A DNA stretch of 64,000 bases from Haloarcula mannanilytica. Its GTDB lineage: Archaea; Halobacteriota; Halobacteria; Halobacteriales; Haloarculaceae. The stretch covers positions 1 to 64,000 of the forward strand of contig NZ_BIXZ01000004.1 of assembly GCF_005406125.1 (NCBI RefSeq). Reading direction: 5' to 3'. The translations under genes and the position numbers were made by a program. The notes beneath the pieces are model-generated. The model was not told where the DNA came from. It ran no database searches and saw nothing but the letters and a program-made list of their open reading frames with translations. This document shows positions 5,256 through 14,411 of the stretch, piece by piece; within the stretch, counting starts at the first letter, position 1, and every line of letters begins with the position of its first letter.

Positions 5256-5324
5256 GCGAAAATACTGCTATTACAGGCATATCAATCCTGTGTTCTTCTG
5301 TAGGACATTGTTGTTACCATCCTC

Positions 5325-6075
5325 CTTCGCTCTTGGATAAGCGATTGTTGGTGGCTTCATAGCGAAGTTTCCAAGATGATTTTGAGTGCTTCCTCACCGG
5401 GTTTGCGGCGGACGCGCTGGCGTAGCTGAAGCCCTCTGAGATACGGCGTGAGCTTGTCTTTGGAAATACCCCGATGGGCGAGAGCCACCGTCGCGCCGGC
5501 GACGCGTGGCTCTCGCAGGTGTTGACGTGAACGTCGCCGTCAGCGTATTCACCCTCGCCGTGGACGACGTATTGGCGGTCGAAAGCGTCGTCCGAGTCAA
5601 GTGACTCGTAGGCCCGAAAGCCGTCGGTATAGACAGTCAACGACTCCTGCTGGCGGGTGCCAAGCAGGAGTCGAATCGTCGATTCGTCGGCGGCTTTCGA
5701 CGGATGAACGTACGTTTCTCCAGTGCCACGGTCAGCGAGGACGAACACTGGCGGCTTGTCCTCGTGATACGTTCCACGTCCACGCGTGGACAGGCCACGC
5801 GAGCGCGACGGTCGGTCGCGCTCGCGGCCTTTCTTCCCGGCTTTCACGTACAGTTCGTCGATTTCTACTGGCCCTTCGAGTTGTAGCCGGGGCGCGTCCA
5901 GCGTCCGTAGGAAGCGCTGGACGCGCCGATACACCGTTTTGTAGGTGACGGCGAGTTCGGCGTCCAGTTGCCTGATACTCGTATTCAGCCGGATGTAGGT
6001 GTAGACGGCCAGATACCACTTCCTGAGCGGTATCGACGAGTACTCGAAGACTGTGCCAGTCTTGTAAAACTCCAC
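5325..6075 (-). mobile_element. partial IS1595-family element (copy 1)
   Basis: The transposase 3' side is complete to a terminal repeat near 5325-5350 (TTCGCTCTTGGATAAGCGAT then TGTTGGTG), which matches both ends of the copy at 13.6-15.7 kb. The opposite side is lost: the zinc-ribbon start of the transposase and its terminus are missing beyond about 6075. Confidence 0.65.
5357..6075 (-). pseudogene. IS1595-family transposase, N-truncated and frameshifted
   Basis: The readable part starts VEFYKTGTVFEYSSIPLRKW and continues with the DDE elements EIDELYVKAGKKGRERDR, EDKPPVFVLADRGTGETYV and VYTDGFRAYESL. It reaches VNTCESHASPARRWLSP. There the frame shifts (near 5475); the correct continuation, HRGISKDKLTPYLRGLQLRQ to KIILETSL, lies in another frame and stops at 5357. 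The two-cysteine zinc ribbon seen in the copy at 13,663 is absent. The gene is therefore inactive at both ends. Confidence 0.8.
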
Positions 6076-6407: not shown

Positions 6408-6809
6408 CCATTGGCTGGGCTACAATCGGTTGCGGGCACTGAATGAGAGTTCACTCAGCATGTCGTTAGTTCCCGCTGAGTGGGCGTCGGCCGTGGTACG
6501 TGCTGAGCCAGGAGTGACACACCACTTTTCAAGTGAAATCAGTGGAGAATTCGTGGGCGTTTTTGAGCGGATCTCATAGTTTATCAAGTCAGCTAACACA
6601 GATTCACTCCATCTACTGGGAACCACAGTGGTGTTATCCCGTCAGATGCGATTGTGTGTAGGCTCGCATTCCCTTTTCGACGCTCCTACTCAAGACGGGG
6701 CCGATTACGTTCGACGCGCTCCTGTGTGATCTAAGCGCGATCGTTGCTCTACGCAATCTCGCCGGCTAACCAGGGCAACTCGAGTGGGAGGAAACGCGGT
6801 AGTTCCTCC

Positions 6810-6835
6810 CAGACACCCCACCGCGTCGAATGATC
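6810..6835 (-). repeat. origin recognition box-like repeat, inverted copy
   Basis: Read on the minus strand it gives ATTCGACGCGGTGGGGTGTC, nearly identical to the three direct copies at 8207, 8273 and 8341. The G-rich GGTGGGGTG core with a flanking CGAC motif resembles haloarchaeal ORB elements bound by Orc1/Cdc6. It faces the downstream copies across the initiator gene. Confidence 0.6.
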
Positions 6836-6935
6836 TTCTCCATGGACAGCAAGAGTATTACGAGTTCAGATAACCAAGACGCCACATCATGTCGTATATC
6901 CTTACTGCATTGTTTGCGTCGGACTATCATACGAC

Positions 6936-6960
6936 GCATTCGACACGGTGGTTTTATTAT
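6936..6960 (+). repeat. degenerate origin-box half
   Basis: GCATTCGACACGGTGG matches the first two thirds of the other boxes, but the G-run is followed by TTTTATTATC instead of GGTG. It is probably a decayed copy, or chance overlap with the AT-rich promoter of the initiator gene. Confidence 0.35.
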
Positions 6961-6984
6961 CACGGAGAGAGCATTCAGATACAT

Positions 6985-8197
6985 ATGATGTCGACGTTCA
7001 CTCGTGATACCGAAATCTTCCGCGACGAAGATATGCTCCGGGAAGATTACCAGCCCGAGTCCATCACAGCTTGAGAAGACGAACTGGAGAACTACAAGAA
7101 GGTACTTCAGCCCGCAGTCAACGGCGCACAGCCACGAAACATCTTTCTCTATGGTAAAACGGGTGTCGGAAAGACCGCCGTCTCACGGTTCCTTCTGAAC
7201 CGACTAAAACAGGATACAGAACAGTACGATGGTATCGATCTCTCAGTGTACTGGCTCAACTGTACGAATCTTTCGTCCTCGTATCAGGTTGCGGTCAACC
7301 TCGTGAACACAATCCGAGACCCGGACGAGCAAATTAGCACGACAGGATACCCCCAGCAACGCGTCTTCGACATTTTGTACGATGAGCTTGACGCAGTCGG
7401 TGGAACAGTTCTGCTCGTATTCGATGAGATCGACCAGATCGGAAGTGACGATGAAATTCTCTATGAGATTCCCCGTGCCCGGGCAAATGGGTATCTGGAA
7501 TCGGCAAAGCCGGGCGTTATTGGAATCAGCAACGATTTCGGATTTCGAGATGACCTCTCGCCAAAAGTGAAGGACACGCTCTGTGGGGAAGAGATCCATT
7601 TTTCACCCTATAACGGGCCAGAACTCGAGGCGATTTTACGCGAGCGCGCTGAGAGGGCGCTGTTCAATGATGCAGCTGAGGAGGGCGTGATATCGCTCTG
7701 TGCCGCGCTTGCCGCACAGGACACCGGGCAGTGCGAGACAGGCGCTTAATATTCTATATAATGCAGGAGAGATGGCTAGAACAAAGGGTGAGTCGATAAT
7801 CACGGAATCACATGTCCACAGTGCTCGTGAAGAACTCGAACAGAGCCAGATCGAACATGGTATGTGCGAGCTGACAAAGCACGGTCATCTGGCGCTCGTG
7901 GCCACGCTCCATCTCGCACTCGAAGAGGAGATGCCCGCCCGAGTCCGGGATATATACCCGCGGTACCGGACTATCGCCGATCACTCAAAGATTGAGCCGC
8001 TGGTCCGTCGGCGTATGCACGACCACCTCGCTGACCTCGCCATGCTCGGCATTCTCGACCGACAGTCACGCAACGAAGGACGGCGAGGTGGGCAGTACTA
8101 CGAGTACGAGTTCAGCGTAGATCTACGAATTGTACAGGAAGTTGTGGGTGACTTGGAAGGAGTTGTGCTTCCACAGCGTGTCCAACGCCGACTGTAA
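6985..8197 (+). pseudogene. Orc1/Cdc6-type replication initiator, disrupted
   Basis: From ATG 6985/6988 the frame reads [21 protein letters not shown]. It is interrupted by a TGA at 7072-7074, then continues [19 protein letters not shown] (Walker A), [16 protein letters not shown] (Walker B/sensor region) and [16 protein letters not shown]. Near 7729 the frame shifts; the other frame carries [16 protein letters not shown] and the winged-helix C-terminus ending QRVQRRL at 8197. The total is the normal length, about 400 codons. In life this AAA+ protein binds origin boxes and loads the helicase. With a stop and a frameshift it should not be functional. Origin-box-like repeats flank it on both sides. 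Confidence 0.88.
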
Positions 8198-8206
8198 GGT
8201 CAAGCA

Positions 8207-8232
8207 AACACTCGACACGGTGGGGTGTGTGA
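8207..8232 (+). repeat. origin recognition box-like repeat A
   Basis: AACACTCGACACGGTGGGGT followed by GTGTGAC, directly after the initiator pseudogene. It is the first of three direct copies spaced about 66-68 bp apart. Confidence 0.6.
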
Positions 8233-8272
8233 CATCGGCTTCTTAAAAGACGAGGATGGATATCACTGGCAG

Positions 8273-8299
8273 AACATTCGACGCAGTGGGGTGTGTGAT
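8273..8299 (+). repeat. origin recognition box-like repeat B
   Basis: AACATTCGACGCAGTGGGGT followed by GTGTGAT. Three substitutions relative to box A. The preceding bases (CTGGCAG) resemble those before box C (CCGGCAG), so the repeated unit is longer than the box. Confidence 0.6.
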
Positions 8300-8340
8300 A
8301 TAGGCCCTTCACAAAGGCAGGGCCAAGCATTACCGGCAGA

Positions 8341-8362
8341 ACACTCGACACGGTGGGGTGAA
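8341..8362 (+). repeat. origin recognition box-like repeat C
   Basis: ACACTCGACACGGTGGGGTG followed by AA; identical to box A over its core, 67-68 bp after box B. Last of the direct array. Confidence 0.6.
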
Positions 8363-8498
8363 GGAAGAAGCAACACAGTCTGCCGGTAGCAAAATATCAC
8401 TCGCGGTCAACACTCTGTTCCGGCAAGGACGATATTCACACGATCTGACTCTCGGATGGCGATGAGCACCTTAGAGACAGTGTCATGTCCGAGTTTGT

Positions 8499-8672: not shown

Positions 8673-9150
8673 TCACTCAGTGCCACCACTCGGCACGAGG
8701 TCGCTTGGAGTAAACAGTGATACGTCGTCGCGGTCTGCAGCCAGCCGTTGCAGGCCACTGGAAAGCCCCGACCGGCAGAAACAGCAGTACTGATCCTCGC
8801 GGTCGGTCCCGCTGGGTGGTGTCCACTGAACCTGTGCCGCAGTCCGCTCAAGATCTGCCAGGTCCGCTTCGGTCATCTCGCTGCTGGTATACTTGCACTC
8901 ACCGGCTACGAGTGTCCCGTTACTCTCGGTTGACGACGATCAGATCCGCACGCTTGTCTTCCTCGACCGGACCCGGTCGGTGAACCCCGCGGCGTCAGCG
9001 GGGTTCGCGCTGATGCGGGCCACCCGTTCCGGGAATTGACTCCCCATCGACACTCGCGTAATGAGTGTCTTCTTTGCTAACCGGGCGAACTTGCAGAGCA
9101 AACGGCTCCACAACCGTATCCAGAACCGACTTAGTGGCGAGTTCAATGAT
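8673..9150 (-). pseudogene. C-terminal remnant of a DUF234-type archaeal ATPase
   Basis: Pieces in different minus-strand frames give ELATKSVLDTVVEPFALQV, KEDTHYASVDGES, VEEDKRADLIVVNRE and NGTLVAGECKYTSSEMTEAD, then LADLERTAAQVQWTPPSGTD, CCFCRSGLSSGLQRLAADRD and DVSLFTPSDLV. The GECKYTSSE block followed by DLERTA is the nuclease-like C-terminal part of archaeal DEXX/DUF234 ATPases. At least two frameshifts separate the pieces and the ATPase domain is gone. Family assignment is from memory of the motif order. Confidence 0.5.
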
Positions 9151-9350
9151 GGTACCGCATCGTCGCTGCTAATCGCGCCCTGTTTCATGCATTTCAGGAC
9201 GAGAAATACAGTGCCCCGGGTGGTGATCCCTCGGCAACAGCAACGTCTCGCCCGTACGTTTCATCCATCACAGCAACGCCGTCGTGGGCGTCAGCATAGG
9301 CGAGCACAGCGGCGTCAGCGTCACTGAGATTGCTATTTTCTTGGAGCCGC
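9150..9350 (-). pseudogene. PIN-domain (VapC-like) toxin remnant
   Basis: Minus-strand text LSDADAAVLAYADAHDGVAV then MDETYGRDVAVAEG, and after a frame change TTRGTVFLVLKCMKQGAISS, corresponds to the C-terminal half of a PIN-domain ribonuclease. That half has the acidic LSDADA and DE motifs followed by a GT..L..L..G.IS helix. The start and end are missing. The wHTH gene directly beyond it on the other strand could be its former neighbour. Confidence 0.5.
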
Positions 9351-9356
9351 GAGTAG

Positions 9357-9599
9357 ATGGGCGAACGGGAGCGGGACGCGGAGACCGGCGAGATCGTCGA
9401 CAAGTACCCTCGGGAGGCGTAGCTGTCGGCGATCCGGGAGTCGGGAGGCATCGCGGCGACCTCCGAGGTCGCCGAGACGGTCGGGGCAGACCGGAACACG
9501 GTGTACAAGAAGCTGCAGTCGATGGAGGCCGACAGGGCCGTGTCGAGCCGGAAGGCGGGCGGGATCCGGGTGTGGAAACAAGAAAACAGCGGGGATTAG
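9357..9599 (+). pseudogene. small winged-helix DNA-binding protein with an internal stop
   Basis: An 80-residue frame from ATG 9357 (MGERERDAETGEIVDKYPRE) to TAG 9597. Codon 22 is TAG at 9420-9422, immediately after EIVDKYPREA. The rest, SAIRESGGIAATSEVAETVG then ADRNTVYKKLQSME, is a clear helix-turn-helix of the kind paired with haloarchaeal PIN toxins. Without the single stop it would be intact. A start after the stop would lose the first helix. Confidence 0.6.
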
Positions 9600-13662: not shown

Positions 13663-14411
13663 ATGTTCCCATTCGAAGTGCTGTGTTCAGAGGCGAGCGC
13701 CGCGAACCTGCTGGAGCAGGTTCGCTGGCGCGATGGCCTCTACTGCCCGCGCTGCCGGTCTGAATCGGTAATCAAGTACGGCAGCTATCGAGAGTATCAG
13801 CGGTATCTCTGTAAGGATTGTGACCGTACGTTTAACACCAAGACCGGCACGATCTTCGCGCACGCGAAGATCGGCCTCGACAAGCTGTTGTTCGCGTTCT
13901 ACGCGTTCCTCAGGTTCAACACGAGTATTCACCAGCTGGACGCTGAACTTACCGTTTCGTACCGGTCGCTGCGACGGCGCGTCGAGCAGTTCGCCAGAAC
14001 GCTCGACGCGCCAGCCATCGACCTCGTTGGCCCGGTAGAGATCGACGAAGTCTACGTGACTGCGGGGCTGAAAGGCCGCAAGCGCGACCAGGAGTCGCGC
14101 TCACGCGGCCTCTCGAAACGCGGTCGTGGAAACTATGCCGAGGACAAGCCACCGGTGTTCACACTCGTTGATCGTGGGAGTGGTCAACGATACGTCGTGC
14201 CAGCGAAATCCGCTGACGAATCGACCGAGTGACTCCTCCTCGGCGACCGCGAGGAGGAGTCGCTGACCATCTACACCGACGATTTCGAGCGTACGACCCA
14301 CTCGAAGACGACGAAAGCTACCAGCGAGAAGCGGTGATTCACGGTGATGGCGAATACGTCGATGGAGACGCACACGTGAATACCTGCGAGAGCCACGCGT
14401 CGCTGGAGTAA
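13663..14411 (+). pseudogene. IS1595-family transposase, 5' part (frameshifted, split)
   Basis: Starts MFPFEVLCSEASAANLLEQV and has a zinc ribbon (YCPRCRSESVIKYG, YLCKDCDRTFN). The catalytic domain follows: VGPVEIDEVYVTAGLKGRKR, EDKPPVFTLVDRGSGQRYV. The frame ends at a TGA at 14,230. The next frame continues FRAYDPLEDDESYQREAVIH and VNTCESHASLE, where the IS630-type element begins. So it has both an internal frameshift and an insertion. The remaining exon-like piece is at about 15,523-15,657. Confidence 0.85.

Follow-up and report, generated by a model that had tools for sequence, protein, structure and literature searches.

The locus described here is very probably an acquired and now defective orc1/cdc6-linked replication origin, which lies in the VR2/region B hotspot, arrived separately from oriC4-cdc6g and was recently inactivated. 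The window, meaning the whole 64-kb stretch of DNA that was analysed, is the beginning of a 299.5-kb contig (C4) in a 33-contig draft genome of 4.2 Mb; base 1 of the window is the contig end, and the view of the variable region stops there on its far side. The features on which the description depends are as follows.

5314-6075, minus strand: IS1595-type transposase, left border of the module (ORF search)
6808-6837, minus strand: upstream origin recognition box, inverted (repeat copy 6810-6836; matrix score 33.8)
6938-6952, plus strand: truncated box CATTCGACACGGTGG, running into a TATA-like TTTTAT at 6953-6958
6988-8197, plus strand: orc1/cdc6 initiator pseudogene of the TIGR02928 family, read in two frames (profile matches, alignment)
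7072-7074, plus strand: in-frame TGA stop, 28 codons past the start ATG at 6988
7726-7729, plus strand: frame change, one base more than in intact relatives, within the conserved DTGSARQAL motif
8204-8233, plus strand: downstream origin recognition box 1 (matrix score 41.9)
8270-8299, plus strand: downstream origin recognition box 2 (matrix score 38.4)
8337-8366, plus strand: downstream origin recognition box 3 (matrix score 39.8)
13663-14406, plus strand: another IS1595-type transposase, this one broken, within the variable region (ORF search)
22104-64000, no strand: conserved collinear chromosome, everything to the left of it being the variable region (the right end is an extrapolation from stretches tested up to 43 kb)

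The initiator gene is recognizable over both of its halves, which match TIGR02928 with E-values of 3.9e-77 and 4.2e-36, and it carries the Pfam domains Cdc6_lid and Cdc6_C; its identity to the intact orthologue of Halovenus carboxidivorans (L038) is 87.4%. The preliminary description had placed a stop at 7072 and a frameshift near 7729, and both lesions are confirmed in the sequence: in alignments with intact Orc1 orthologues the TGA at 7072-7074 is in frame at what is a sense codon in the relatives, and the frame changes at 7726-7729. The frame following the TGA is open up to 7749 and the DTGSARQAL motif is continued in a different frame, therefore one extra base is placed within 7726-7729. 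With these lesions, the locus lacks the intact linked initiator gene that is listed among the marks of an origin (PMC3528665). Elsewhere in the same genome, a broken orc1-like copy with one TGA is found at C9:127987-128967 and a partial one, a C-terminal piece, at C12:15769-16242; a Halovenus-type genome (G098) also holds a partial second copy of the C-terminal part of the same orc (C1:448247-448653), about 5 kb from its intact gene.

The boxes surrounding the gene were scored with a position matrix derived from 106 boxes found in relatives (consensus AGAACACTCGACACGGTGGGGTG). All four full boxes far exceed the best score of 10.8 seen among 100 simulated versions of the region, the lowest-scoring being the upstream inverted copy, and zero-mismatch matches to the strict core TCGACRCRGTGGGGTG in the 4.2-Mb genome are these four boxes only; an identical core is present on the haloarchaeal plasmid pR1SE2. 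The G-rich repeats proposed earlier, one inverted and three direct around the gene, are thus real, measuring 23-26 bp with start-to-start distances of 66 and 67 bp between the direct downstream copies; the list of four full copies stands, but the truncated fifth box at 6938-6952 had been overlooked. This truncated box and the TTTTAT joined to it lie about 30 bases ahead of the orc start codon, and the pair holds the same position in most orthologues (L037-L045, L053-L060, L079). The upstream side consists of one full inverted box and the truncated direct box, with an A+T content between them of only 52-55%; intact relatives mostly have two to six full upstream inverted boxes. Repeated G-string ORB-like elements directly beside an orc/cdc6 gene, as described for origins (PMC3528665), are seen at the locus.

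The association of these boxes with this type of initiator extends to other genomes. The same ORBs flank the close relatives examined on one or both sides (69-87% identity over the full protein), and ORBs of the window type are absent around the relatives at 48-53% identity (L002-L004, L061, L062); the ORB sequence is common to members of the same Orc family and not to other families, a pattern expected of origins (PMC3528665). The same boxes in the same layout near intact haloarchaeal relatives bear out the proposed linkage of the repeats to orc1/cdc6, and judged from sequence the window boxes are genuine origin recognition boxes of this initiator family. In the window's genome, five Orc paralogues have box cores of a different sequence (CTTCGGAAAC, GCGGACAT, TACTGGCAAT, CACCGGAAAC and CATTCACAC). 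The idea that the boxes are common to other origins of the genome was rejected, as every paralogue examined has its own box.

The truncated ORB at the TATA-like element suggests self-repression or self-regulation by the initiator. In a comparison of 25 orc families, promoter segments (-80 to -28) gave 8.7 matches per kb to the flanks of their own origin versus 1.6 to those of other families, with gene-body controls giving baseline values of 1.9 and 2.1; the segment from -135 to -83 gave 8.5, equal to the promoter segment. On this basis the notion that half sites resembling boxes particularly mark orc promoters was rejected, as the segment just upstream matches its own flanks equally well, and origin boxes commonly extend through the orc promoter. 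Half-boxes of their own type were also noticed in the promoter position of other Orc families.

Collinearity indicates that the locus is chromosomal and is situated in the Haloarcula hotspot region B/VR2. In complete genomes of the genus, the stretch at 40-43 kb of the window belongs to chromosome contigs, and the distance from the 464-aa conserved orc (cdc6E/oriC2 position) to this 40-43 kb anchor is about 234 kb in the window's genome, against 218 kb for G013 and 226 kb for G019. The latter two genomes are taken here to be H. hispanica and H. marismortui, respectively, an assumption which fits the published VR2/cdc6g description. In six of six genomes compared, collinearity stops at 22.1 kb of the window; to the left of this point, the variable region is lower in G+C and contains glycosyltransferase and epimerase genes as well as IS1595 transposases. 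Several close relatives sit on chromosome-sized contigs. The region B/VR2 hotspot was described by Wu et al. (2012, 2014) and holds oriC4-cdc6g in H. marismortui (PMC3528665, PMC4441112); such variable regions are hotspots of origin gain, loss and disruption (Wu et al. 2014, PMC4441112). Two traits given for such regions (PMC4441112) are present, namely a border of conserved collinear chromosome, with the boundary at 22.1 kb, and transposases beside the origin, with IS1595 elements at 5314-6075 and 13663-14406. Downstream of the relic, remains of several unassigned genes occupy 8673-9595, and within them 9143-9361 is 87% identical to a stretch of G019 about 3 kb from its orc gene.

Other genomes carry initiators in the same place. 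G019 has an intact orc with the same ORB type 27 kb past the same collinearity boundary, in agreement with the published oriC4-cdc6g. The tree joins the window gene to those of Halovenus and archaeon SHR40 (100/100) and places the G019 gene inside a Halorubrum clade (100/100); the two origins belong to different clades and are therefore separate acquisitions. The tree and the genome tallies together show a patchy presence acquired separately per strain, as reported for Haloarcula origins (PMC4441112). Among the other genomes, G033 carries an intact orc of a different family within this variable region; the orc of G014 there is broken by one TAG, with two downstream boxes left (L134, G014:C9:119300-123300), and that of G029 is a fossil with six stops and no full box (L135, G029:C5:115400-119000), most similar to the G019 gene. 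Across neighbouring genomes, this one hotspot presents an origin that is intact, an initiator that is broken though its boxes are good, and a fossil whose boxes are gone.

The codon changes suggest that the initiator was constrained until recently, and that the gene was either lost recently or carries lesions that are errors. On the window branch, changes at codon positions one, two and three number 21, 10 and 97, and the estimated share of the branch without constraint (neutral share) is 0.10 (95% -0.09 to 0.29). A long-standing pseudogene was rejected, as the strong third-position bias departs from the neutral expectation (p = 3.7e-27). Non-synonymous to synonymous changes stand at 36 to 92 on the window branch compared to 21 to 60 and 19.5 to 77.5 in intact relatives, a difference that is not significant (Fisher p = 0.35). 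This normal constraint over the rest of the gene is what would be expected if the gene were intact in the living strain and both lesions were sequencing or assembly errors, and a one-base frame change beside a G run is a typical error. Such a reading is nonetheless improbable: the two lesions are independent and differ in kind, errors seldom take the form of a nonsense substitution, broken transposases lie nearby, other orc copies of the genome (C9:127987, C12:15769) are broken as well, and the upstream box array is also reduced. A sequencing error may still lie behind one or the other lesion, or both.

The preliminary description had further proposed integration of a plasmid or megaplasmid at this site, the locus being its decayed origin. 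The view of the locus as an origin linked to orc1/cdc6 that has true ORBs and whose initiator is broken is upheld; the plasmid integration is not supported, with no plasmid backbone gene among the ORFs tested, and is considered rather unlikely. In its favor, a close intact relative is located on pR1SE2 (82% over the ATPase part), the region is low in G+C and contains transposases, and PMC4441112 gives the integration of extrachromosomal elements as its general model. On the other side, Pfam assigned the ten ORFs tested at 0.5-14.2 kb to glycosyltransferase, epimerase or IS1595 transposase or gave no assignment, so that no partition, integrase or other plasmid gene occurs among these ten, in a search bounded by the contig end at base 1; no integrase or attachment site was seen, the only tRNA of the 64-kb window lying at 41.6 kb. 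Homology to relatives is also confined to the origin module (approximately 6927-8228), and the closest relatives lie on contigs of 1.07 Mb and 225 kb. Import of a small module by transposition or recombination is judged to have the same likelihood as the integration of an entire plasmid. A phage or viral origin of the module was rejected, the protein having no match in the phage collection and viral contigs having no exact box.

An acquired origin that has recently become defective, the preferred reading, can be described in terms of the family to which it belongs. In an intact module, binding of Orc1 to the boxes around its gene would lead to melting of the DNA that separates the inverted upstream boxes and to loading of the helicase, as suggested by the ORB-Orc linkage of the family; the downstream boxes would likely titrate the Orc1 protein, as has been indicated for H. 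hispanica oriC2D (PMC3936714). In the relic, the initiator is cut by the stop and the frameshift and the upstream array offers a single full box; with a broken initiator and a reduced array, the origin should therefore not fire by itself. The relic should stay inert as long as no element carrying an Orc of this type comes in, and the closest plasmid relative of the relic origin is pR1SE2.

Whether the boxes have retained a role depends on a partner for them. It had been suggested that an Orc encoded elsewhere might still bind them, and another cellular Orc could in principle keep them in use as a dormant origin or regulatory site; their scores are similar to those of boxes in intact relatives, and dormant origins are documented in Haloferax mediterranei (PMC4595724). 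This is weakened by the different boxes in the flanks of the examined paralogues and by the published specificity of each Orc for its own ORBs (PMC3528665, PMC3936714, PMC4441112); among the origin-linked paralogues examined box by box, no resident Orc partner for the relic boxes is evident. Since inactivation was recent (or the lesions are errors), the good preservation of the boxes is no sign of kept function, and their continued use is highly improbable. By analogy, the boxes could instead serve as a chromosomal decoy that binds the initiator of an incoming plasmid with the same Orc and ORBs (pR1SE2-type) and lowers its replication, although this is a long shot. In H. hispanica, an oriC2 plasmid replicates less when the downstream box array alone, without oriC2-cdc6E, remains in the chromosome (PMC3936714). 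The three to four boxes of the relic may not suffice for such an effect. If true, a dead origin would be a plasmid-incompatibility locus.

The relic is a real but ordinary case of a process already described in Haloarcula, and it leaves the current view of archaeal replication unchanged. To the model in which haloarchaeal chromosomes gain and lose origins it contributes a case whose age has been estimated, and boxes without their initiator form a natural construct for studying titration and plasmid exclusion.

In comparing the locus to known systems, oriC4-cdc6g of H. marismortui shares its hotspot, its ORB sequence, the presence of ORBs on both sides of the gene, and the surrounding polysaccharide genes and transposases. 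It differs in being intact and of a Halorubrum-type clade, with 74% identity between the two proteins over their whole length; the window copy is broken, of a Halovenus-type clade, and oriented the other way with respect to the conserved flank. Like the window locus, oriC3-cdc6D* of H. hispanica (VR1; PMC3528665, PMC4441112) is acquired and non-functional with a transposase alongside and few ORBs left; however, it is a different named gene in another region and was disrupted by a transposase, whereas in the window the initiator itself is broken. The pR1SE2 origin of Halorubrum lacusprofundi (NZ_KX906370.1) has an 81% identical Orc1, an identical ORB core, upstream inverted and downstream direct boxes, and a TATA-linked truncated box, but it is intact, has six upstream boxes and resides on a 163-kb plasmid. 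Nearest by tree (100/100) and with the same boxes are the origins of Halovenus carboxidivorans (L038) and archaeon SHR40 (L037), which differ from the relic in their intact genes and belong to other genera.
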